Origin: Candidatus Pelagibacter communis
Lineage (GTDB): Bacteria; Pseudomonadota; Alphaproteobacteria; Pelagibacterales; Pelagibacteraceae
Direction of reading: 5' to 3'
Length of the DNA: 64,000 bases
NCBI RefSeq assembly: GCF_001180225.1
Contig: NZ_CVST01000012.1
Span: forward strand, 1 to 64,000
The notes under the pieces are model-generated. The model was not told the DNA's origin. It ran no database searches and saw only the letters and a list, made by a program, of their open reading frames with translations. Positions 43,757-55,661 of the stretch are shown piece after piece (the first letter of the stretch is position 1; each line of letters begins with the position of its first letter). Made by a program: the position numbers and the translations under genes.

Positions 43757-45151
43757 ATGGAAAAAGATAAAAAACTCAATCCTTCCTTACCATCTGGATT
43801 TGAAGATCGTTGGAATAAAAAGTTAGTTTTAAAAAAACAACTTTTAAAAGTGATTGAAAAAAATTTTTTAAAATTTGGAGCTGAACCATTAGAAACACCT
43901 TCTTTTGAGATCAGCGAAAATATTGGTTCGTTTTTAGCAGAGGACGAGGATAACCCTATGTCTGATGTATTCTCATTTAAAGATGGAGATAAAAATATTA
44001 CTCTTAGATACGACCTATCCAGTCCTTTAGCTAGGTTTGTTGCTCAAAACAACCAAGAGCTTCCATCAATTTACAAAAGATACGCAATTCAGAATGTTTT
44101 TAGAAATGAAAAAGCAGGAAATGGAAGATACAGAGAGTTCATGCAGGCTGACTTTGATATTGTTGGAAATGTTAATTCAGCTCAAGCTAATGCAGAACTT
44201 TGTAATTTAATCTCAAGTACACTCTTAGATTGTGGTTTGAATAAAGATCAATTCACAATCAATATTAGTAACAGAAAAATAGTACAAGGTTTAATTGATG
44301 ATTTAAAAATATCTGAAGATAAGCAATTAAAAGTAATTAGAGCTATTGACAAATTAGATAAACCTGGATTTGGTTTAAAAGGTGTTGAAGATCTTCTTAA
44401 AAAAGAGAGAAAAGATGCAAGTGGTGCAGTTACAAAAGGTGCCGATCTAACAGAGGAACAAGCATTACAAATATTAAATTTTTTAAAAATAAAAGATTTA
44501 AAACAATTAAAAGAAAATTTAAAAAATCCATTGTCTCAAGAGGGAATTAAAGAGCTTGAGGAAGTTTTTAAAATTTTAGGATTTGGTTCTAATTTAGAAC
44601 AAGTACAAACTAATTTTACTATTGTTAGAGGTTTAGCTTATTATTCTGATTTTATTGTTGAAACTAACTTAAATTTTAAAGTTACAAATAATAAAGGAAA
44701 AGAAGTTGATATTGGCAGCATTTGTTCGGGAGGGTCTTATGCTAAGCTTATCTCAAGATTTAAAGGGGTAGATATTCCAGGTACAGGGATTAGTTTCGGT
44801 GTAGACAGATTGTTATTTGCACTTTTACAATTGGATCAGATTAAGGTGGATGATCAAAAGCCTGTTTTAGTATGTGTGATGGATGAAAAATATCTAAAAA
44901 ATTATTACGAAATTCTAGATCAATTAAGAGAAAATAACATTAATGCAGAAATTTTTTTAGACACAAAGAAAAATTTAGGTAAGCAATTAACCTTAGCAAA
45001 TAAACGTGAATTAAATGTAGCAGTTATATGTGGTGACAATGAATTTAATGAAGGCACAGTAACGATAAAAAATCTTAAAGGTGTTAAAGGTGAAAATAAC
45101 AAAACATTTCCAAAATCAAATTTAATAGATGAAATCAAAAAACTTATCTGA
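43757..45151 (+). CDS. hisS: Histidyl-tRNA synthetase, alphaproteobacterial/eukaryote-like type
   Basis: A class II synthetase of 464 residues. Motif 2 reads VFRNEKAGNGRYREFMQADF, the eukaryote-like form rather than the common bacterial RHERPQKGRYRQFHQ. The histidine-binding motifs appear as VRGLAYYSDFIVE and CSGGSYAKLISRF, both diverged from the usual RGLDYY and GGRYDGL. Motif 3 lies in GTGISFGVDRLLFAL, and a C-terminal anticodon-binding domain follows. The enzyme is expected to charge the G-1-less tRNA-His encoded 5 nt upstream of its start. It overlaps hisZ by 23 nt. Confidence 0.94.
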   Translation: MEKDKKLNPSLPSGFEDRWNKKLVLKKQLLKVIEKNFLKFGAEPLETPSFEISENIGSFLAEDEDNPMSDVFSFKDGDKNITLRYDLSSPLARFVAQNNQELPSIYKRYAIQNVFRNEKAGNGRYREFMQADFDIVGNVNSAQANAELCNLISSTLLDCGLNKDQFTINISNRKIVQGLIDDLKISEDKQLKVIRAIDKLDKPGFGLKGVEDLLKKERKDASGAVTKGADLTEEQALQILNFLKIKDLKQLKENLKNPLSQEGIKELEEVFKILGFGSNLEQVQTNFTIVRGLAYYSDFIVETNLNFKVTNNKGKEVDIGSICSGGSYAKLISRFKGVDIPGTGISFGVDRLLFALLQLDQIKVDDQKPVLVCVMDEKYLKNYYEILDQLRENNINAEIFLDTKKNLGKQLTLANKRELNVAVICGDNEFNEGTVTIKNLKGVKGENNKTFPKSNLIDEIKKLI

Positions 45152-46178
45152 AAACATTCTTAGATCAGTAAAATCTAAGGGTTACAAATACATAGATTTA
45201 CCCTCAGTTATTGAGGCTAATCATATCGTTCAAAGGTCAGGTGAAAACTTTAGAAAATTTATTTTTTCATTTACTGATCAAAATGGAAGTGAGTTATGTC
45301 TTAGACCAGATTTAACAATTGCATCTTGTTTGAGATACTTAGAGAATAGTTTAAAAGGAAAAGAAAAAATTTTTTATAGTGGTCAAGCATACAGAAAATC
45401 TGAAAATAAAAGTGATTCTATTATCCGAGATCAAATTGGATTTGAAATTTTAGGTTCTAAAGATGAAAAAAATGATGATAAAGAAATTATCAATACCTCA
45501 CTAAAATCTCTTCAAAATATTAAGTATTCTTCAGGTAAATTAACAATAGGAAATGTTGAGATATTCAATTTGTTAATTTCAAAACTAGATATCCCGAAAA
45601 GATGGAAGTTAAGATTATCAAGACATTTTTGGAGAGAAGATTACTTTAATGATCTTTTAAAAAGATTAGAGACAAACTCTGATGTAGACCCAACTATTGT
45701 TGAAATTGATAAAAAGCGTTATTTAAAAATGCTAAAAGAAGATCTATCAAAAGTAATAGCAGGTAGAACTATTAATGAGATATTAAATAGGTTTGATAAC
45801 AAAATTAAAGACCCAAGAAGAGCTAGTAAAGGTAAAGGTGTTTCAAAAATTATTAAAGACTTTTTAAAAATCAAATGCCCAATCAATGAGGCTGCATCTG
45901 AGTTAAATAAATTTTTTAAAAAAAATAGAATTAATTTGGTGGTTGATCAAAGATATTTTCCTGTCTCTAACAACAAAGTTTCAAAACTAAATGTAGTATT
46001 TTCAACTTCTTTTGGAAGACAATTGGAATATTACACAGGGATGGTTTTTAAAATTGATGTTAAATCAAAAAATAAATTAAAAAATATTATTAATGGTGGT
46101 CGTTATGATCGATTAATTTCTGATCTTGGGTCAAAAAAACAAATACCAGCAGTTGGGGCTGCGTTGAATTTAAACTAG
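45129..46178 (+). CDS. hisZ: ATP phosphoribosyltransferase regulatory subunit HisZ
   Basis: A paralogue of the HisRS catalytic core that lacks aminoacylation activity and regulates short-form HisG in the first step of histidine synthesis. The 349 residues show class II-like RPDLTIASCLRYL and RDQIGFEILG segments and GRQLEYYTGMVFKI near the end, with GGRYDRLI. No anticodon-binding domain is present. It overlaps hisS by 23 nt. Its partner hisG is 840 bp downstream, separated by a sulfotransferase gene. Confidence 0.92.
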   Translation: MKSKNLSENILRSVKSKGYKYIDLPSVIEANHIVQRSGENFRKFIFSFTDQNGSELCLRPDLTIASCLRYLENSLKGKEKIFYSGQAYRKSENKSDSIIRDQIGFEILGSKDEKNDDKEIINTSLKSLQNIKYSSGKLTIGNVEIFNLLISKLDIPKRWKLRLSRHFWREDYFNDLLKRLETNSDVDPTIVEIDKKRYLKMLKEDLSKVIAGRTINEILNRFDNKIKDPRRASKGKGVSKIIKDFLKIKCPINEAASELNKFFKKNRINLVVDQRYFPVSNNKVSKLNVVFSTSFGRQLEYYTGMVFKIDVKSKNKLKNIINGGRYDRLISDLGSKKQIPAVGAALNLN

Positions 46179-46179
46179 A

Positions 46180-47028
46180 ATGATAATTTGGTTAGCCTCA
46201 TATCCAAAAAGTGGAAATACTTGGTTGCGTTCATTATTAGCAAGTTATTATTTTTCAAAACGAGGTGAGTTTGATTTCACTTTATTAAATAATATAGATC
46301 AGTTTCCGAGTGTTAATTTTTTTAAAAATGATAAAGATTTTTATCTAAGACCTGAAGATACCTCTGCAAAATGGATTGAAAAACAAAAATTAATAAATTC
46401 GGATAATAAATTAAAATTTTTTAAAACTCACAATGCTCTTTGCAAAATTAATGGTAACGGATTTACAGATGAAAAAAATACTTTGGGTGCAATATATATA
46501 ATTAGAGACCCAAGAAATATAGTTTCATCATTAGCACATCATTATGAGATAAAAAAAGAAGAAGCTTTAAGATTTATGGATGATGAAAAAAAAGCTTTAA
46601 TTGAAAAAAAAGAAAATAGATTTTTAGGATTTGTAACATTATTTTCTTGGAAATTTCATGTAGATAGTTGGAATAATTGTAGTTTGTTTCCAGTTCTAAC
46701 TATTAAGTATGAGGATTTAGAATCTTCAACATATGCAATATTAAAAAAAGTAATTGAATTTATTACAAAAATATCCAAATCTAAAACTTCGTTTAACCGT
46801 CAGAAAGCAAAAATTGCAGTAGAGTCATGTAACTTTGAAAAATTAAAAAATTTAGAAAAAAAAAATGGTTTTAACGAAGCTATGATAAAAAAAGATAAAT
46901 CAGGAAGAGTTAAATTTTTTAATCTTGGAGGAGAAAATAATTATAAAAAAATTTTAAATCCTAATTTAACCAAACAAATTAATACAAATTATAGAGAGTA
47001 TCTGGAAAAATTTAATTATGAAATATAA
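46180..47028 (+). CDS. Sulfotransferase-family protein inserted between hisZ and hisG
   Basis: A 282-residue PAPS-dependent sulfotransferase-like protein. The 5'-phosphosulfate loop is SYPKSGNTWLRSLL (residues 7-20). The 3'-phosphate motif is IIRDPRNIVSSLAHH near residue 109, and a later FFNLGGENNYKKIL resembles the GxxGxxK-type end motif. No signal peptide is seen. The acceptor is unknown. It starts 1 nt after hisZ and overlaps hisG by 11 nt, so it is embedded in the histidine operon although it has no known role there. Confidence 0.88.
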   Translation: MIIWLASYPKSGNTWLRSLLASYYFSKRGEFDFTLLNNIDQFPSVNFFKNDKDFYLRPEDTSAKWIEKQKLINSDNKLKFFKTHNALCKINGNGFTDEKNTLGAIYIIRDPRNIVSSLAHHYEIKKEEALRFMDDEKKALIEKKENRFLGFVTLFSWKFHVDSWNNCSLFPVLTIKYEDLESSTYAILKKVIEFITKISKSKTSFNRQKAKIAVESCNFEKLKNLEKKNGFNEAMIKKDKSGRVKFFNLGGENNYKKILNPNLTKQINTNYREYLEKFNYEI

Positions 47029-47707
47029 TTTTAAAATAGGTATTCCTAGTAAAGGTAGACTCAGAAAAGATGTATTAAATATATTTAAAAAAAATAAATT
47101 AAATTTAATTTCAGAAAGAGGAGAAAGAGATTTATTAGGTACAATTAAACAAAAGAAAAATGTTAAAATTTTATACCTTCATGCAAGAGAAATTATAGAA
47201 AGACTTGGAGATGGTTCATTAGATCTAGGATTTTCTGGATTTGATTTGTTGAAGGAGAGTGAAATAAATATTCAAAAGAAAATTAATGTTATTAAAAAAT
47301 ATGATTTTGGGAAGGCCACGTTAGTAGTTGCAATTCCAGATCCTTGGATTGATGTTCAAACTATTGCCGATTTAGAGGAAATAGCATTTGAGTTTAGAGA
47401 TAAGAAAAAGAAAAGATTAAGAGTTGCAACCAAATATCCAAATTTAACAAGAGAATTTTTATTTTCCAAAGGGGTTACTCAATTTAAATTAGTAGATAGT
47501 TTAGGTGCTACAGAGGCATATCCTTTTACTGGTTCATCAGAAATAATTACTGACATCACTTCAACAGGAGAAACTTTAAAAGCTAATAATCTAAGAGTTT
47601 TAAAAGATGGTGAAATATTAAAATCAGAGGCTTGCATGATGATATCTAAATCATCGTCTAAAAATAAATCTCTTCAAAATTTTGCTAGATTACTTTCTAA
47701 GAATTAA
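47018..47707 (+). CDS. hisG: ATP phosphoribosyltransferase, short form
   Basis: The first enzyme of histidine biosynthesis. The 229 residues include IGIPSKGRLRKDV at the N-terminus, DLGFSGFDLL and the PRPP-binding loop around VDSLGATEAYPFTGSSEIITDI. The short length, without the regulatory C-terminal domain, agrees with the presence of hisZ. It overlaps the sulfotransferase gene by 11 nt and a small minus-strand ORF at its 3' end by 18 nt. Confidence 0.94.
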   Translation: MKYNFKIGIPSKGRLRKDVLNIFKKNKLNLISERGERDLLGTIKQKKNVKILYLHAREIIERLGDGSLDLGFSGFDLLKESEINIQKKINVIKKYDFGKATLVVAIPDPWIDVQTIADLEEIAFEFRDKKKKRLRVATKYPNLTREFLFSKGVTQFKLVDSLGATEAYPFTGSSEIITDITSTGETLKANNLRVLKDGEILKSEACMMISKSSSKNKSLQNFARLLSKN

Positions 47708-47821
47708 ATCTTTCCAATAAATAAGAATAATTTTAATAATATCTAGGTTTCGAAGAATTGCATAAACACCTACTAGTATTCCTAAACCAATAATAATTTT
47801 AAATATTAATAATAATTCCAT
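47690..47821 (-). CDS. Possible small single-pass membrane protein (43 aa)
   Basis: A 43-codon minus-strand ORF in the gap between hisG and rmuC. It starts MELLLIFKIIIGLGILVGVY, a clear hydrophobic helix, and ends with an amphipathic/basic stretch (YWKDLILRK). It fills an otherwise empty 145-bp gap and is divergent from rmuC with 31 bp between starts. No family is recognised, and an ORF this short could arise by chance in A+T-rich DNA. It overlaps hisG by 18 nt at the 3' ends. Confidence 0.4.
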   Translation of the reverse strand: MELLLIFKIIIGLGILVGVYAILRNLDIIKIILIYWKDLILRK

Positions 47822-47852
47822 TACATATTTTATATATGATATAAAGTGATTC

Positions 47853-48950
47853 ATGGAAGTTATATTTTTAGTTATTTTAATTCTGCTGCTTGGAGTAGTT
47901 TCGGCAATTCTTTACTTAAATTTAAGATCTAAGCCTGAAGATCAAAAGGAAAATAAAGAAGCTGAAGAAATAGCTAATTTAAAATCCGAAATCTCAAGTT
48001 TAAAGGATACCTTAAATACAACAATCAATAGCTCACTTGGAGCAATGTCCACTTCATTTAACAATCTGTCTACCGGAGTAACAAAAGACATGACAGAAGC
48101 TTTAACCAAAGTAGATGAAAAAGTTGGAAATTTTAATCAACAAGTTCAACTATTAAACCAAAGCCAGGAGAGTATAACTAAAATTTTGGCTGGGGTTAAA
48201 AAATATGGAACTCTTGCAGAGTTTAGTTTGGATGCACTAATTAAAGATTTACTACCAGCTTCTCAATTCATGACAAATGTGAAAATGAAGGAAAATACAA
48301 GTGAGAATGTAGAATTTGCAATCAAGCTTCAAGGCGATGTTTTAGTTCCAGTTGATAGTCATTTTCCAGTGGAGAAATTTAAAGCAATTACCGATGGTCA
48401 TGACGCGGAAGACAAAAGATTAGTTGCTGATGCTAGAGCAAAATTAGCTACTGCATTTAAAGCAAAAGCTAAAAGTGTAAATGAAAAATATATTGTACCA
48501 CCAAAAACTACTGACTTTGCAATTGTATATGCTCCTACAGAAAGTTTATACAAAGAGTTAACTGAATACCAAGACCCAAGTACAAAAGAATTATTAATTC
48601 AAGAATTAATGAAAAAATATAAAGTTGTAATTTGTGGCCCTAATACTTTGTCTGCATATTTGCAATCTTTACACATGGGCTTTCAATCCTTGAAAGTTCA
48701 AAAGGGAGCAACTGAAATCTATAATCATTTAAAAACAATAAGCACAAGATTTTCAAAACACTTTGATAACATAGTAGTTCTTAGAAAAAAATTAGAAGAT
48801 GCTATGGGTGTGGTTGATAAATTTGGAACAGATGCAAGATCAATAAATAGAACTTTGGAAAGTATAAAAGATCCAGAGCAGGTTGAGAAAGCTGTACAAA
48901 CAGACAACGTTGAAAAATTTGTTGATAAACAAAGACAAATTAAAAATTAA
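47853..48950 (+). CDS. rmuC: DNA recombination protein RmuC
   Basis: A 365-residue RmuC-family protein. An N-terminal membrane anchor (residues 2-24) is followed by a coiled-coil region (about 30-125). The conserved nuclease-like domain includes FAIKLQGDVLVPVDSHFP and TTDFAIVYAPTESLY, with VVICGPNTLSAYLQSL further on. RmuC limits DNA inversions and rearrangements; the domain is related to restriction-endonuclease folds. It begins a three-gene run of exonuclease-type genes (rmuC, MGME1-like, ExoI-like). Confidence 0.93.
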   Translation: MEVIFLVILILLLGVVSAILYLNLRSKPEDQKENKEAEEIANLKSEISSLKDTLNTTINSSLGAMSTSFNNLSTGVTKDMTEALTKVDEKVGNFNQQVQLLNQSQESITKILAGVKKYGTLAEFSLDALIKDLLPASQFMTNVKMKENTSENVEFAIKLQGDVLVPVDSHFPVEKFKAITDGHDAEDKRLVADARAKLATAFKAKAKSVNEKYIVPPKTTDFAIVYAPTESLYKELTEYQDPSTKELLIQELMKKYKVVICGPNTLSAYLQSLHMGFQSLKVQKGATEIYNHLKTISTRFSKHFDNIVVLRKKLEDAMGVVDKFGTDARSINRTLESIKDPEQVEKAVQTDNVEKFVDKQRQIKN

Positions 48951-48987
48951 TTTCTTTTTTTTGATAATACCATTTATAAGAAATCTC

Positions 48988-49674
48988 ATGCAATGGAATC
49001 GTAAATATGATTATCCAAAATCTTCAAGAGCTACTGTTGATGGTATTAGAAGATACCTTTTGGGAGAAGAAAAATTACCAAGTGTTACTTCAATTTTAGA
49101 TGTTACTAAATCTGATGAAGATAAAGCAGCATTAGCAAATTGGAGAGAAAGAACAGGATATAAAGAAGCAGAAGCTATCACGAAAGCTGCAAGCAGCAGA
49201 GGTTCACAGATGCATAACTACTTAGAATCATATTTGCTTGGGAGAGAAAATTTAAGTTTTTTTGATGATAATGAACAATATAAATTGATGGCAAAAGAAA
49301 TAATAGATCATGGTTTAAAAAATAGATTAGAAGAAATATGGGGTGTTGAGTGCACACTGTACTATCCAGATAAGTATGCTGGCACTGCTGATTGTGTTGG
49401 AGTTTATGAAGGAAGAGAAACAATTATAGATTTTAAACAAAGCAATAAACCAAAGAAAGCTGAGTATATCGATTCATGGTTATTACAAACCAGCGCGTAT
49501 TCTTTAGCTCATAATGTTGTGTATAACTCCAATATCACTTCTTGTGTTATTTTGGTCTGCACTGTAGATAAATTATTCCAAGAATTTAAAATTCAAGGAC
49601 ATGATTTAGTCATCTATCAAAATTTGTTTTTAGGAAGATTAAAAAAATTTCATGAACTATCTAATTTAACTTAA
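48988..49674 (+). CDS. MGME1-like PD-(D/E)XK exonuclease
   Basis: From the ATG at 48988 this is a 228-residue RecB-like nuclease. The segment KLPSVTSILD (29-38) and RGSQMHNYLE (71-80) precede the catalytic core. The core has Glu121, AGTADCVGVY with Asp135, IIDFKQSNKPK with Asp148 and Lys150, and a QTSAY motif (167-171). The order and spacing closely resemble mitochondrial genome maintenance exonuclease 1 (MGME1). Similar proteins occur in phages. The frame is open from 48883, but that overlaps rmuC and lacks similarity. It lies between rmuC and an exonuclease I homologue. Confidence 0.85.
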   Translation: MQWNRKYDYPKSSRATVDGIRRYLLGEEKLPSVTSILDVTKSDEDKAALANWRERTGYKEAEAITKAASSRGSQMHNYLESYLLGRENLSFFDDNEQYKLMAKEIIDHGLKNRLEEIWGVECTLYYPDKYAGTADCVGVYEGRETIIDFKQSNKPKKAEYIDSWLLQTSAYSLAHNVVYNSNITSCVILVCTVDKLFQEFKIQGHDLVIYQNLFLGRLKKFHELSNLT

Positions 49675-49689
49675 AATATATAAGAAAAT

Positions 49690-51126
49690 ATGGACAAATT
49701 TGTAATCTACGACACTGAAACAACTAATAGCACTATTTGGGGATCAATTATTGAGGTTGGGGCTGTTGTTGTTGATAAAAATTTAAATGAAATTGGTAAG
49801 TTAAATATCAGAGGCAGAATGCCAGAAGGAGAAGTGCCAAGTGCTAAAGCTCTATTGGTAAACTCAACAAGTATAGATTTACTTACCAAAGGAAACTATT
49901 CTCATTATGAATTCTTAGGAGCAGTTGAAAACTTCTTCTCAAAAGCTGCGCCAGCATTATTTATGGGCTGGAGTAACTTAAATTTTGATAGACGTATGTT
50001 TCATTTTAATTTTTTTAAAGGTAACAGATATCCTTACATTACTCATTCGTCTCCAAATAAAGAACACGATGGTCTTCATGTTGCAAGAGCTGCACAAACA
50101 ATTAATTCCGAAACTTTAAAAACTGAATTAACAGATGCTGGAAATGAAAGTCTTGCTCTTGAAGGTTTAGCAAGACAACAAGGATTTGATACTTCCCAAC
50201 AACATACTGCGTATCATGATGCATTTACTAGTTTGAAAATTTTAAGAATTATAAAAAAAAAGCATAATGACAATTGGGAAAAATTTTTAACCACTTCCAC
50301 AAAGAGTAGCGTGGAATCTATTTTAAAAGGAGAGGGTATTTATTCAATTTTTGAAAATGTTAAAGGAAGAAATATGATGTATTTAGTATCAACATTACAT
50401 CCAGAGCATTGTTTTCATCCATCTTATGCTTCCTGGGGATATCTTTGGGACTTAAGAAGAGATCCAGAACCTTTTTTAAACATGTCTGTTAATGAGCTTA
50501 AAGCTAATCTTAAAAAAATAAGTCCTAAAGCTTTAAGAGTTATTAAAACAAATAAAGCGCCTGTAGTATTAGATAAAAAATTTGCTTTAAAAGAAAAAGC
50601 CTATGCAGATCTAGATTTAGAAACAATTCAAAAAAGAGCCAAATTAGTTAGATCTAGCGAAAACCTATGCAAGAATATTCAAATCATTAATAGGGAAGCT
50701 GCAGAAGAAAAGGCTCAAACTCAAAATCAAGAAGATTTACTTCCTGAGGAAACATTGTATGAGAAATTTGTTCCAAACAAAGATACTGCTTTATTTAAAA
50801 CATGGCACAGCTCGTCGTGGGAAGAAAAATTAAGATTACTAGATAAATTTCAAGATAAGAGATGTGCATGGTTTGGACAAAAAATTATTTACCAAGAAGC
50901 ACCTCACGTATTACCTCCTGATTTATATAAAAATATTAAAAGCGAGATAGCTAGAAGAATTTTAAGTAAAAATAGAGAAAAGTGGCAAACTATAGCAATG
51001 GCTTACACTGAAATAGACACCTTAAGAGACCAAGCATCTAATAGAGATGATGAAGAAGAACTAAAAAAATTGGATGAAATAAATGAATTTATTATGTCTA
51101 TTGAAAAAAAATATGAAATTGCATAG
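49690..51126 (+). CDS. sbcB: Exodeoxyribonuclease I-like 3'-5' exonuclease
   Basis: A 478-residue DEDDh exonuclease matching E. coli ExoI in length (475). ExoI motif: IYDTETTNS (Asp7, Glu9). ExoII lies in GWSNLNFDRRMF. The ExoIII His-Asp pair is in HTAYHDAFTSLKI. The remainder matches the SH3-like and C-terminal domains of ExoI. It degrades single-stranded DNA 3' to 5' and processes recombination intermediates. It lies 15 nt downstream of the MGME1-like gene and 34 nt upstream of the thioredoxin gene. Confidence 0.93.
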   Translation: MDKFVIYDTETTNSTIWGSIIEVGAVVVDKNLNEIGKLNIRGRMPEGEVPSAKALLVNSTSIDLLTKGNYSHYEFLGAVENFFSKAAPALFMGWSNLNFDRRMFHFNFFKGNRYPYITHSSPNKEHDGLHVARAAQTINSETLKTELTDAGNESLALEGLARQQGFDTSQQHTAYHDAFTSLKILRIIKKKHNDNWEKFLTTSTKSSVESILKGEGIYSIFENVKGRNMMYLVSTLHPEHCFHPSYASWGYLWDLRRDPEPFLNMSVNELKANLKKISPKALRVIKTNKAPVVLDKKFALKEKAYADLDLETIQKRAKLVRSSENLCKNIQIINREAAEEKAQTQNQEDLLPEETLYEKFVPNKDTALFKTWHSSSWEEKLRLLDKFQDKRCAWFGQKIIYQEAPHVLPPDLYKNIKSEIARRILSKNREKWQTIAMAYTEIDTLRDQASNRDDEEELKKLDEINEFIMSIEKKYEIA

Positions 51127-51160
51127 TTGACTTTAAAACTTTAATTTATAAAAAGGATTT

Positions 51161-51478
51161 ATGCTTATAGATTTTAAAGATGAAGATTTTGATAGTAAAA
51201 TCAAAAATGAAGATGTTTCAGTAATTCAGTTTTCAGCTGCTTGGTGTGGACCATGCAAAGCTTTAAAACCAGTGATGGATAAATTAGCTGATGAATACAA
51301 AGGTAAAGCTGGTTTTTATTATGCTGATGTAGAAGATGGTGGAATAAACACTGGAAGTGCTGCTGGCATAAGAGGCGTACCAACTGTTATTATTTACAAA
51401 AAAGGTGTTGAAGTAGATAGAAAAGTTGGTGGGGTACCTGAAAGCCACATGAAAGAATTTTTAGAAAAAAATATCTAA
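51161..51478 (+). CDS. Thioredoxin
   Basis: A 105-residue thioredoxin fold with the active site WCGPCK (residues 28-33), preceded by VIQFSAA, and the cis-Pro loop RGVPTVIIYKKG. No signal peptide is present, so it is a cytosolic disulfide reductase. The stop overlaps folC on the opposite strand by 4 nt. TrxA is likely, but paralogues cannot be excluded. Confidence 0.94.
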   Translation: MLIDFKDEDFDSKIKNEDVSVIQFSAAWCGPCKALKPVMDKLADEYKGKAGFYYADVEDGGINTGSAAGIRGVPTVIIYKKGVEVDRKVGGVPESHMKEFLEKNI

Positions 51479-52740
51479 TTCAAATTAAGTATTTCTCCAG
51501 CTAGATAAAGAGAACCTGTAATTAAGATTATATCGTTTTTCTTGACCGAAATGGACATGATTGCATCAAATATATCTTCTTTGTACTGAACATTTTTGAA
51601 TGAATTTAGTTTGTTTTTTAAGTCTTTTCCGCCAATTGAATTAGGTTGGTTTGGAATATCAATAGTGGTCAAGGTTGAGATATTTTTAAAATAACTAATA
51701 TACTCATTATGATCTTTATTGGACATCATACCTAAGATTATGTGTTTATTACAATCTAAAGTTTGGAGATATTCATTTACCGCTCTAGCTCCATCAGGGT
51801 TATGATCCCCAGAAACTAATAATGTATTATTTTTTACAAGTTCTTTTAGTTTTCCAGATTTAATTTCTTGTAATCTTGCAAGATTATGTATTTTTTGAAT
51901 ACCACTTTCTATTTTAGTATCTTCAATTCCAAGATTTAAAGTTCTTATAGTTGCAATGGCAGTTGATATATTTTCTAATTGAAACTGACCAAGAACATTT
52001 GGTGGAGGAAGTTTTAAACCTCCAAATTTATCCTCATAGTAAAAAGAACCATTTTCTTGATTTGAATAACTATAGTCTTCATTAAAAAATAGCTTATTTG
52101 AAGAGTTATTTTTTAGAGTTTTTTTAATACATTCCATCGTTTGTTCTTTATTTTGTTTAGCGATAATAATATTTGAATTAAGTAAGGCTGATGTTTTTTC
52201 AAAAACAATTTGCTCGATTGTTTGATTTTCTTTTGGAAGCCAGTCGAGATGATCTTTACTTATAGAGGTTACTATACTTGCAAGATTACTCTTTAAAATA
52301 TTAGTAGCATCAAAACGGTGGAATAAACCACTTTCTATTAAGTTGATATTGTCAGGATATTGAGCAGCTTTATAAAAAAAACAAGCTGATAACATTTCAA
52401 AAACAGTTATTGGTTCGTTATTATTAACTTTTTCAACCTGTTCTAATAAATCAGCTAGTTCCTCGTCATTTAATTCCTGATTATTAAATACAAATCTTTC
52501 ATTAATTTTTTGTATATGCGGGCTCGTATAAACATTACATTTTAAATTTGCTTCCTTAAGAATCGCATAAATAGCTTGGATGGTAGAATTCTTTCCATTA
52601 GTTCCAACAACTGATATGGCCTTAATTTTATCTTGGGGATTTCCTAATTTTTTACAGAGATTTTGAATTCTATCTAAAGATAAATCTATTTCTTTAGGAT
52701 GCAACTTTTGAAAATTGCTGAGTATCTTCTGAAGTTTCAT
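51475..52740 (-). CDS. folC: Folylpolyglutamate synthase / dihydrofolate synthase
   Basis: A Mur-ligase-type ATP enzyme that adds glutamate to (dihydro)folates. The 421 residues have the P-loop VVGTNGKNST (Asn where most have Gly, catalytic Lys kept). TSPHIQKINERF, TSISKDHLDWL and SGDHNPDGARAV follow. The conserved N-terminus (LHPKEIDLSLDRIQ) confirms the start even though the gene overlaps the accD end by 47 nt. accD-folC adjacency is typical of alphaproteobacteria. It is convergent with the thioredoxin gene. Confidence 0.94.
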   Translation of the reverse strand: MKLQKILSNFQKLHPKEIDLSLDRIQNLCKKLGNPQDKIKAISVVGTNGKNSTIQAIYAILKEANLKCNVYTSPHIQKINERFVFNNQELNDEELADLLEQVEKVNNNEPITVFEMLSACFFYKAAQYPDNINLIESGLFHRFDATNILKSNLASIVTSISKDHLDWLPKENQTIEQIVFEKTSALLNSNIIIAKQNKEQTMECIKKTLKNNSSNKLFFNEDYSYSNQENGSFYYEDKFGGLKLPPPNVLGQFQLENISTAIATIRTLNLGIEDTKIESGIQKIHNLARLQEIKSGKLKELVKNNTLLVSGDHNPDGARAVNEYLQTLDCNKHIILGMMSNKDHNEYISYFKNISTLTTIDIPNQPNSIGGKDLKNKLNSFKNVQYKEDIFDAIMSISVKKNDIILITGSLYLAGEILNLN

Positions 52741-53623
52741 TTTGCTCAGAACTTATAGCAGAATTTTGTTTTAACAATATTGATAATAACGTTCCTATTT
52801 TAGATGCTAGATCTCTTCTCTCAACGATTAAATCTACAAACCCAGTTTTCTCAACATACTCACTTTTTTGAAAACCTTCAGGCAATTCTTCTTTTACTGT
52901 TCCTTGAATAACTCTTGCACCTGCAAATGCAATTAATGCGCCTGGCTCTGCAATATGAATATCTCCTAACATTGCATAGGAAGCAGTTATTCCTCCTGCA
53001 GTTGGATCTGTAATACAAACTAGGTAGGGCAAACCATTTTTCTTTAATTCATTAATTGCAAGTGTTGTTCTTGTCATTTGAGATAATGAAATTAAACTTT
53101 CCATCATTCTCATTCCTCCACCAGCACTAATACATATAAATGGCGTTTGATTTTCTATTGCATGTTGAATTCCATATAAAAATGCTTCACCTTCTGCAGC
53201 AGCCATTGAAGCTCCTAAAAAATCAAAGTCAGATGCAACAGCTGTTATTTTAATATTATTGATTGTCCCAGATGCAACCATCATTCCACAATCTAATCCA
53301 GTTTTCTTACGAGCACTTTTTAATCTATCTTTGTATGATTTAGAGTCTGTCCAATTTAAAGGATCATCTTTTGGAATTGGTGTTTTAAAAACTTCATAGT
53401 TGTTTTTTCCAAACAAAATATCAAATCTTTGTTTTGGTTTAATTCTATGATGTTTATTACAATCTGGACATACCCAAAGGTTTGCTTCTAAATCTTTCTT
53501 TAGAATTGGTCCACGACAACAACTTGTCCATTCACTTTTTGCGATATCTTCTTTAGTAGCTCGTTCACGTATAGCAGTTTTTATCTTTTCACCTGCTTTA
53601 ATAATTTTGGTTATCCAGTTCAT
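52694..53623 (-). CDS. accD: Acetyl-CoA carboxylase carboxyltransferase beta subunit
   Basis: Part of the carboxyltransferase that makes malonyl-CoA for fatty acid synthesis. The 309 residues contain a zinc-finger region with an altered first pair: adjacent Cys35-Cys36 rather than CxxC, while the second pair CPDC (52-55) is normal. The crotonase-like domain follows with SAGGGMRMMESL and DPTAGGITASYAMLGD. It lies downstream of trpA, with stop/start overlap of 4 nt, and upstream of folC, with a long 47-nt overlap. Confidence 0.95.
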   Translation of the reverse strand: MNWITKIIKAGEKIKTAIRERATKEDIAKSEWTSCCRGPILKKDLEANLWVCPDCNKHHRIKPKQRFDILFGKNNYEVFKTPIPKDDPLNWTDSKSYKDRLKSARKKTGLDCGMMVASGTINNIKITAVASDFDFLGASMAAAEGEAFLYGIQHAIENQTPFICISAGGGMRMMESLISLSQMTRTTLAINELKKNGLPYLVCITDPTAGGITASYAMLGDIHIAEPGALIAFAGARVIQGTVKEELPEGFQKSEYVEKTGFVDLIVERRDLASKIGTLLSILLKQNSAISSEQNETSEDTQQFSKVAS

Positions 53624-54420
53624 TGAATTTTATTTCTTAATCTTTTAACGATATTAGTAACATTTGTGACAGTATTTTGTCTTCTTTCAATTGATTTAGA
53701 TATTTCCTTACATATCGCACTACCAACTACTAGACCATCAGCTTTTTTAAGTGATTTAATCGTCTTTTCTGTAATACCAAAGCCAATCACAACATTTTTC
53801 GATTTATTTTGATTTTTAATTTTTTTGTATCTTTCCAAGATTTTCTTAGGAGATACTTTCAGTTTTCCTCCTGTAGTTGATAACATACTTATATAGTAAA
53901 CCATATCATGTGAATCTTTTATTATTTTTTTTAATCTGATTTGAGATGTAGTAGGTGAAACCAGCTGAATAAAATTTACTCCTTTTTTTTTACATTTTGA
54001 TGCAAAACTTTTGTTTTCTGGATAAGGTAAATCTACAACAATCAGTCCATCTACTTTTGATTTTTTACATCTATCTAAAAATTTATTTTCATTGTACTGA
54101 AATATCATATTGTAATAACCCATTAGTATAATTGGTGTATTTTTTTTTGATTTTTTAAAATTTTTTGCAATTGAAAATACATCGTTAATTTTAATACCAT
54201 TTTTAATTGCCCTATAGGCGCTAGTTTGGATTTGACCTCCATCAGCTATGGGAGTGTTGTGAGGAAAACCCAATTCACAAATATCAGCATAGTCAGAAAT
54301 AGAATTAAGAATTTCTAAAGATTTTTTTTTAGTATTATCACCTGCAACTGTATAGGTCAGTAAGGCAGGTCTATTTTCTTTTTTGGCATTTAAAAAAGCT
54401 TTATTAAGTAAAGAGCTCAT
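53620..54420 (-). CDS. trpA: Tryptophan synthase alpha subunit
   Basis: Cleaves indole-3-glycerol phosphate to indole. The 266 residues form a TIM barrel with the catalytic Glu in CELGFPHNTPIADG and the catalytic Asp in the same PIADG segment. GLIVVDLPYPE and the phosphate loop VIGFGITEK follow. The usual SRxGVTG loop is changed to SMLSTTGGK. The start overlaps the trpB stop by 1 nt, and it overlaps accD by 4 nt downstream. Confidence 0.94.
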   Translation of the reverse strand: MSSLLNKAFLNAKKENRPALLTYTVAGDNTKKKSLEILNSISDYADICELGFPHNTPIADGGQIQTSAYRAIKNGIKINDVFSIAKNFKKSKKNTPIILMGYYNMIFQYNENKFLDRCKKSKVDGLIVVDLPYPENKSFASKCKKKGVNFIQLVSPTTSQIRLKKIIKDSHDMVYYISMLSTTGGKLKVSPKKILERYKKIKNQNKSKNVVIGFGITEKTIKSLKKADGLVVGSAICKEISKSIERRQNTVTNVTNIVKRLRNKIQ

Positions 54421-55661
54421 TAATGTTTTCCCAATCTTTCTCTTAAAATATCTCTATCTTTTTTTGCATCACCACAAGAGTTAACAATTATAATTGTATC
54501 TTTGCTTAATTTTGGAGCAATTTTTATTGCCTCAGCAAAAGCATGACTTGGTTCTAAACTTGGATTAAGTTTCTCAAATTTAGTTACCATTACATGTGCA
54601 TTAAGTGCATCCTCATCTGTTGCGTAAGTATATCTTGCTCTTTTAGTATCTTTTAAAAAGCAATGAATAGGACTAACACCAGGATAATCTAAACCAGCAC
54701 TTATAGATTCTGTATCATTAATTTGTCCTTCATTATTTTGGCAAACATATGAAGCTGCCCCATGCAAAATACCAACTTTTGCATTTCTACTTAATGGTGC
54801 TGCGTGAAGTTTTGATTTTTTTGGGCCTCCCGCTTCTACACCAATCAATTCTATTTGTTTTTTATCAAAGTCAATAAACTCGCTCCAAAATCCATATGCA
54901 GAGCTTCCACCCCCAACACAATTTATTAATTTAATTTTATTTGGAATTTTTTTAAATTCTTTTTTAAGCTGTGTTCTTAATTCTCTAGAAATTTGTGCAG
55001 TTGACCAACCACATATTTTTACAAAGATATTCGGTCCAACAGTACTACCAACACACATATGTGTATTATCACAATTAGACACCCAATATCGCATGCATTC
55101 ACTCACTGCATCAACTAAAGTCTGACTTCCAGAATAAACTGGTACAATTTCTGCACCATTTTTTCTCATAGCGTCACAATTTGGTTTTTGTCTTTTAATG
55201 TCTTTAGCACCCATAAAAATTTTACATTTAAGCCCAAATTTTTTTGCTGCCATACTTAACATTTTTCCTGCATATCCAGCGCCAGTATCACCAACGATAT
55301 ATTTTTTACCCATAGCTTTACAAATTAGTGCATGAACAGTGGCATTATAGATTTTATGTGCACCTCCATTTGCTTCAGAAACTACTTTTGCCCAAATTTG
55401 AGCTCCACCTAAATGATTGGACAAATTTTCTAATTTCACAAAAGAGGTTGGAGATCCAATATAATTTTTAAAATAATAATCTCTTTTTTTTAAAAAGGCT
55501 TTATTATTTCTAAGTTTCTTAAATTCTTTTGTTAAATCCTCTACTGGTTTTTTCAAAGTTTCAGGTATAAAACTACCTCCAAATTTTCCTCCCCAAAACC
55601 CTTGTTGATCGTGTTGATCAATTAATGGAATACCTTTTTTAAGCTTCATTTTTAATTTCAT
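54420..55661 (-). CDS. trpB: Tryptophan synthase beta subunit, diverged active site
   Basis: A PLP enzyme that condenses indole with serine. The 413 residues keep the PLP lysine (Lys103 in GGAHKIYNA) and the phosphate loop (CVGGGSSAYG). The catalytic acid motif normally reading ETGAGQHG appears as DTGAGYAG, with Asp125 in the Glu position. The usual C-terminal SGRGDKD appears as SCGDAKKD. Context (trpF-trpB-trpA) supports the assignment. In-frame start choices are 55661 or 55649; the second shortens the overlap with trpF from 23 to 11 nt. Confidence 0.93.
   Translation of the reverse strand: MKLKMKLKKGIPLIDQHDQQGFWGGKFGGSFIPETLKKPVEDLTKEFKKLRNNKAFLKKRDYYFKNYIGSPTSFVKLENLSNHLGGAQIWAKVVSEANGGAHKIYNATVHALICKAMGKKYIVGDTGAGYAGKMLSMAAKKFGLKCKIFMGAKDIKRQKPNCDAMRKNGAEIVPVYSGSQTLVDAVSECMRYWVSNCDNTHMCVGSTVGPNIFVKICGWSTAQISRELRTQLKKEFKKIPNKIKLINCVGGGSSAYGFWSEFIDFDKKQIELIGVEAGGPKKSKLHAAPLSRNAKVGILHGAASYVCQNNEGQINDTESISAGLDYPGVSPIHCFLKDTKRARYTYATDEDALNAHVMVTKFEKLNPSLEPSHAFAEAIKIAPKLSKDTIIIVNSCGDAKKDRDILRERLGKH

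Follow-up and report, generated by a model that had tools for sequence, protein, structure and literature searches.

A phage-type MGME1-like exonuclease is a core gene of Pelagibacter and may stand in for RecJ

Human MGME1 (Ddk1, C20orf72) is a nuclease of 344 amino acids that trims the ends of mitochondrial DNA. It has been described as specific to mitochondria and as having motifs Ia and IV in common with AddA/RecB, and its catalytic residues and helical arch have been mapped (PMC6237815); elsewhere it is counted as closely homologous to bacterial RecB, with flap processing and the degradation of single-stranded DNA (ssDNA) in either direction among its activities (PMC4222359). Circular ssDNA is not cut by the human enzyme, DNA ends are thought to thread under the arch, and a 5′-phosphate is preferred, followed by cutting in the 5′–3′ direction (PMC9460513). 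Metal dependence, the need for a DNA end and action as a monomer characterize the ssDNA exonucleases of the MGME1 type. Phage exonucleases of the same family are collected in phrog_298 and include those of pelagiphages HTVC023P and HTVC027P, jumbo phages and T4-like cyanophages. AddAB/RecB and Cas4 belong to the same PD-(D/E)XK superfamily but are large helicases or Fe–S proteins, in that AddAB/RecB nucleases are fused to a UvrD-type helicase and Cas4 has four conserved cysteines (PMC4176176). MGME1 is named among the genes that are more abundant in open water in ocean metagenomes (PMC10834444), so annotation pipelines may already give this label to genes such as the one that we describe here. 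A literature search found, among the titles and abstracts listed, neither bacterial MGME1-like genes nor a replacement of RecJ.

We analysed a window of 64,000 nucleotides at the start of contig NZ_CVST01000012.1 of Candidatus Pelagibacter communis, in which a preliminary description had placed an MGME1-like exonuclease. The coordinates that it gave are right, and enclose an intact, stand-alone open reading frame (Table 1). A program-made list of open reading frames starts this frame at a TTG at 48883; close relatives start at the methionine of 48988, which leaves about 30 residues ahead of the PSVT motif, and the N-terminal mitochondrial targeting extension is absent from the protein. We computed pN and pS for two genome pairs, with G062 (pN 0.088, pS 0.728, dS being near saturation) and with G003 (pN 0.185, pS 0.680). 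The low pN relative to pS indicates that the gene is under purifying selection and, judged by these substitutions, change relative to G062 is strongly purifying.

Table 1 Features of the nuclease locus and of the second gammaproteobacterial copy.
Feature	Position	Strand	Notes
Sulfotransferase-like gene	46180..47028	+	By eye; between hisZ and hisG
rmuC	47853..48950	+	Pfam RmuC, E 1.1e-48; 37 nt upstream of the nuclease
MGME1-like PD-(D/E)XK exonuclease (predicted)	48988..49674	+	228 amino acids; ATG start, TAA stop
Two long helices resembling the DNA-threading helical arch of MGME1	49114..49236	+	Codons 43–83; contains W52 and motif Ia H76
Motifs I (E121), II (D135) and III (D148-F149-K150)	49348..49437	+	Codons 121–150; human numbering from PMC6237815
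Motif IV, QhxxY	49486..49500	+	Codons 167–171
exoI/sbcB-type 3′–5′ exonuclease	49690..51126	+	Pfam Exonuc_X-T_C and RNase_T; 15 nt downstream of the nuclease
Thioredoxin-like gene	51161..51478	+	Last of the same-strand run; ORF translation, by eye
Gammaproteobacterial copy 2	L410 6006-6668	-	Pfam on L410; also in L412, L413 and L415

Four matches were returned when 177,635 distinct PDB sequences were searched with phmmer (E up to 10), all of them human MGME1 (E 1e-10 to 1.4e-9). A 27-row family profile found human MGME1 with an E value of 1e-28 (104 bits), and the next match was an unrelated yeast protein at 0.37. These searches bear out the earlier recognition of an MGME1-type nuclease in a SAR11-type genome, and all of the motifs then quoted are present in the stated order. 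Identity to human MGME1 is 24–26%. In PHROGs, the protein falls into phrog_298 (exonuclease, E 1.5e-47), with members of the same length. NCBIfam returned no match for it, the RecJ models (TIGR00644 and DHH-family) included, and Pfam found no helicase domain. The AlphaFold2 model (pLDDT 94.3, pTM 0.90) matches MGME1 best, both in Foldseek (4e-13, with the next match at 1e-5) and by VIA structure matching (Z 22.4, root mean square deviation 2.1 Å over 187 residues; next RecE, Z 13.9 and 4.5). In the predicted model, helices 43–56 and 58–83 form an arch over the active site, and the human catalytic residues map to H76 (motif Ia), E121 (I), D135 (II), D148/K150 (III) and Q167/Y171 (IV). These residues are kept in all 106 distinct Pelagibacter sequences, as well as in 20/20 and 9/9 sequences of two gammaproteobacterial gene copies described below; among 180 phage sequences, H76 is missing in one and E121 in two. 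The arch tryptophan W52 is likewise kept in Pelagibacter (106/106), gammaproteobacterial copy 1 (20/20) and phages (180/180), and is present in only 2 of 9 sequences of copy 2, which has 4 alignment gaps there. By sequence and predicted fold, the protein belongs to the MGME1/phrog_298 family, and the likeness is well beyond chance.

The nuclease lies in a same-strand run of rmuC, nuclease, exoI and the thioredoxin-like gene with gaps of 37, 15 and 34 nt; by eye, hisS, hisZ and hisG lie upstream and folC, accD, trpA and trpB downstream. The product of the exoI-type gene scores below the cut-off of the NCBIfam exodeoxyribonuclease I model. A prophage or phage contig at this place was ruled out because the his, trp, folC and accD gene order is common to much of the genus. 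Among 80 nuclease loci on genome contigs, 66 have the order rmuC–nuclease–exoI, three have hisG–nuclease–exoI and one has nuclease–exoI at a contig end; the remaining ten, with neither neighbour, are four gammaproteobacterial loci and six loci that we treated as phage contigs. Sister genera have rmuC and exoI side by side with no gene in between in all five loci read (with stop codons counted, the distance runs from a 4-nt overlap to a 13-nt gap). Among deep members of Pelagibacter there is one case of nuclease–rmuC–exoI and two in which the nuclease is convergent to exoI and rmuC is missing, and three of the nuclease-free genomes that we read have exoI but lack rmuC. The sulfotransferase-like gene farther upstream has no match in the 20 related loci compared or in PHROGs.

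The nuclease is a fixed chromosomal core gene of Pelagibacter, found in 108 of the 117 genomes sampled from the genus. Among 80 genomes from other genera of the order, one matches, over 46 residues only. A sample of 385 genomes from the class gave 28 matches: three belong to the genus Pelagibacter, and the other 25 are partial, at 19–30 bits, of which 23 lie within frames of at least 962 amino acids and two within short frames close to the end of a contig, so that this sample holds no clear stand-alone copy outside the genus. In 398 genomes of the phylum (E 1e-8), the genome of the window was the sole match; the same sample missed a gammaproteobacterial order that carries the gene, and thus shows that the gene is rare rather than absent elsewhere. 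Relatives occur in 894 of 50,697 phage records, with pelagiphage HTVC023P best among the phage matches listed (43.8% identity). Unlike the viral members of phrog_298, the window nuclease is a fixed gene of a cellular genus, set among rmuC, exoI, trxA and folC.

We extracted 360 sequences, left out seven that covered fewer than 170 profile positions and others below 180, and after thinning by identity built a tree of 63 rows and human MGME1. In this 64-row tree the Pelagibacter copies group in a single clade (97/91), and the sister of this clade is a chromosomal one from Gammaproteobacteria (copy 1, 100/99; both together 99/98). The two lie inside a 28-row set with pelagiphage-type genes (99/95), a nesting that assumes a root outside the cellular clade. 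From this nesting we infer that transfer ran from phage to host, in line with the phage–host exchange that the preliminary description had put forward. The closest relatives of MGME1 in this analysis are phage genes, and some of them now count as core genes, both in Pelagibacter and in another marine lineage.

That second lineage is a marine gammaproteobacterial order with small genomes, and the sister clade of the Pelagibacter nuclease is a chromosomal gene there. On four contigs of 15 to 310 kb the nuclease is flanked by ftsH on one side and by a folP-type gene for dihydropteroate synthase on the other. The run consists of rlmE-type, ftsH, nuclease, folP, glmM-type, tpiA and secG genes (Pfam on L203) and is the same in all four as far as each contig reaches. 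In the order to which one of these contigs belongs, the gene was found (1e-8) in 24 of 25 genomes, which measure 0.7–1.2 Mb; 22 of the 24 have more than one matching place, although in one of the 22 the matches are three pieces of a single interrupted frame. In 4/4 loci read, a second copy stands directly before prfB–lysS and after infC, rplT, pheS, pheT and a MerR-type gene; the stop codon of this copy overlaps the likely start of prfB (by eye). Copy 2 is fast-evolving, and a common origin of the two copies is not rejected (approximately unbiased (AU) test, P = 0.231). Two genomes carry a third copy on short contigs (L404 and L405), and the L405 copy clusters with a cyanophage-type marine virus.

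RecJ trims ssDNA ends in the 5′–3′ direction. We lean towards the reading in which a pelagiphage-type ssDNA exonuclease was acquired by the ancestor of Pelagibacter, became a core gene and replaces RecJ. The protein would be an end-dependent ssDNA exonuclease of the MGME1/phrog_298 family, an activity proposed by analogy because it has the same arch and the same site as human MGME1: a free DNA end would thread under the two-helix arch and be cut at a two-metal site made up of H76, E121, D135, D148 and K150. The ancestor would have gained the gene from a pelagiphage-type virus, with the junction of the adjacent rmuC and exoI genes as the point of insertion. Working from the 5′ side beside ExoI (3′–5′), the nuclease would trim ssDNA ends and flaps and would take over the 5′ work that RecJ does in most bacteria, RecJ being absent from the window’s own lineage; in the gammaproteobacterial order, the second copy occupies the recJ place before prfB–lysS. 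RecJ is a counterpart by function in this proposal and has an unrelated fold.

The distribution of RecJ was examined with the TIGR00644 model, which was positive in 13 of 14 control genomes; among exonucleases, the survey covers RecJ and the MGME1-like nuclease. RecJ was detected in 72 of the 80 SAR11 genomes outside Pelagibacter (seven by partial matches) and in 22 of the 117 inside. None of the 25 genomes of the gammaproteobacterial order has a TIGR00644 match, so that RecJ is missing where the gammaproteobacterial copies occur, and the place taken there by copy 2 is that of recJ in Escherichia coli K-12, directly before prfB–lysS. RecJ is also missing from all 50 genomes with a nuclease at least 81% identical to that of the window, including the single-contig genomes G062 and G070 at 99% completeness. 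Full-length RecJ proteins score 357–426 bits within the genus versus 520–575 outside it, and these lower scores indicate that RecJ is also diverging there. The eight genomes outside the genus in which neither RecJ nor a complete gene for the nuclease was found (among them G124, 95% complete, and G040, 94%) are perhaps explained by assembly gaps.

A domesticated phage nuclease with a role unrelated to RecJ is a rival account of this pattern, RecJ having been lost on its own by streamlining or because its neighbourhood is variable, and we consider this alternative unlikely, although it deserves serious weight. Within the genus, 20 genomes carry both genes, 88 the nuclease alone, 2 RecJ alone and 7 neither, and mutual exclusion was tested and not found: RecJ is no commoner without the nuclease (2/9) than with it (20/108). 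The contrast in SAR11 comes down largely to a single phylogenetic event at the boundary of the genus, and does not amount to many independent cases. In the genus loci read (L419–L423), recJ adjoins genes that by eye are glycosyltransferase-like, neighbours that may make it easy to lose; recJ itself varies strongly from genome to genome (36–73% identity among the genus members and relatives listed). An unrelated role fits less well with the same pairing in two lineages of different classes and with a gammaproteobacterial copy in the recJ position. The nine genomes of the genus with at least 99% completeness and at most five contigs also all have one or both genes; the seven with neither are 90–96% complete, and in one of them (G182) the contig ends next to exoI.

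If the nuclease did replace RecJ, mitochondrial end-trimming would have free-living parallels that could be tested in E. coli recJ strains. To our knowledge, the mitochondrion has no RecJ. A wider proposal, which we hold tentatively and rate as short of probable, is that genomes undergoing reduction have repeatedly replaced RecJ with MGME1-like exonucleases from phages, as in Pelagibacter and the gammaproteobacterial order, where one copy would have taken over the recJ slot before prfB, with the mitochondrion as a third, parallel case that drew on the same phage pool. If true, this would place a nuclease among the components of mitochondrial DNA replication that resemble those of phages: Twinkle is said to be T7 gene 4-like, and a DNA polymerase of the mitochondrial type has reportedly been found in cyanophages, according to paper titles.

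The nuclease and exoI have diverged in a manner uncoupled from their flanks. We compared the 55 of 76 loci that have all nine genes; in 120 Pelagibacter pairs with a mean flank identity of 80–85%, median identity was 88.7% for rmuC, 67.1% for the nuclease and 57.3% for exoI, and rank correlation with flank identity was 0.16 for the nuclease and -0.0 for exoI. This uncoupling suggests that the nuclease–exoI pair has been exchanged between lineages. The pair is mosaic together with trxA, which comes in two types, at about 32% or 70–100% identity to that of the window. Such mosaic evolution would be explained if the MGME1-like nuclease and ExoI, with RmuC, formed a module for breaking down invading DNA, in defence against phages or in competition between them. 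In PADLOC, the ExoI-type neighbour matches RTasSbcB (3.5e-57) and RmuC weakly matches RTasRmuC (7.8e-4), both models being filed under defence reverse transcriptases; ordinary ExoI or RmuC proteins could give such matches, inspection by eye of the open reading frames of 44000-54500 showed no reverse transcriptase, and the nuclease itself gives only a weak PADLOC match (Cas4_II, 20.4 bits). A gene that is near-universal in its genus is also unlike a typical accessory defence gene, and we regard a defence module as improbable.

Nothing in the sequences favours descent of human MGME1 from SAR11. The one human sequence stands on a long end branch of 2.93 in the tree: five placements of this single eukaryotic sequence were compared by AU tests, in a tree without row L075 (genome G079 of the genus Pelagibacter), which had stood as phage in the 64-row tree, and none was rejected (P = 0.0998 to 0.436). 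In the free tree, human MGME1 stands on the side of the genes of T4-like and kuttervirus type, and the 54 other rows are set apart from it (98/95); with AddAB as the outgroup it again joins the T4-like and kuttervirus-type phages (85/86). A gene of alphaproteobacterial heritage, the vertical counterpart of mitochondrial MGME1, could draw on the AU test, which does not reject a grouping of human MGME1 and the Pelagibacter clade (P = 0.0998). It is very improbable in view of the 80 genomes from the order’s other genera, in which the gene is absent except for one 46-residue fragment, the want of clear stand-alone copies in other genera among the 385 class genomes, the insertion into a gene pair that is uninterrupted in sister genera, and the nesting among phages. 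The preliminary description had called the gene relevant to mitochondrial origins; a bearing on them by descent is unsupported, as is a vertical alphaproteobacterial origin.

That the protein is a generic RecB/AddAB or Cas4 nuclease with a superficial likeness to MGME1 is scarcely credible and was ruled out by profile scores, structure and tree, since the weak PDDEXK_1 (16.7 bits, cut-off 22) and Cas4_II matches stand against a profile score for human MGME1 far above the 19–30 bits seen in 25 other class genomes, against lower structural scores for RecE, the Cas4 of 7mi4 (Z 12.3) and the AddAB of 4ceh (Z 11.4), and against alignments of 27 and 44 sequences in which no invariant or nearly invariant column holds a cysteine, as the Fe–S cluster of Cas4 would require. 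A placement within generic RecB/Cas4 nucleases, the outcome that the preliminary description had set against its own reading, was not obtained: of 24 AddAB-like nuclease domains extracted from alphaproteobacteria, 12 were used and are separated from the family and human MGME1 (100/99), although a position of human MGME1 just outside the family is not rejected by an AU test (P = 0.137).

Some contigs in the sample carry nucleases of the pelagiphage type under cellular names. Four short contigs (3.3 to 19.7 kb) assigned to Borrarchaeum, Flavobacterium, Flavobacteriaceae and Winogradskyella (L140, L142, L145 and L146) are probably phage contigs in the wrong bins, and were treated as phage on the basis of their tree position and short length. 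L141 and L150, which have genes in common with pelagiphage loci, were also treated as phage.
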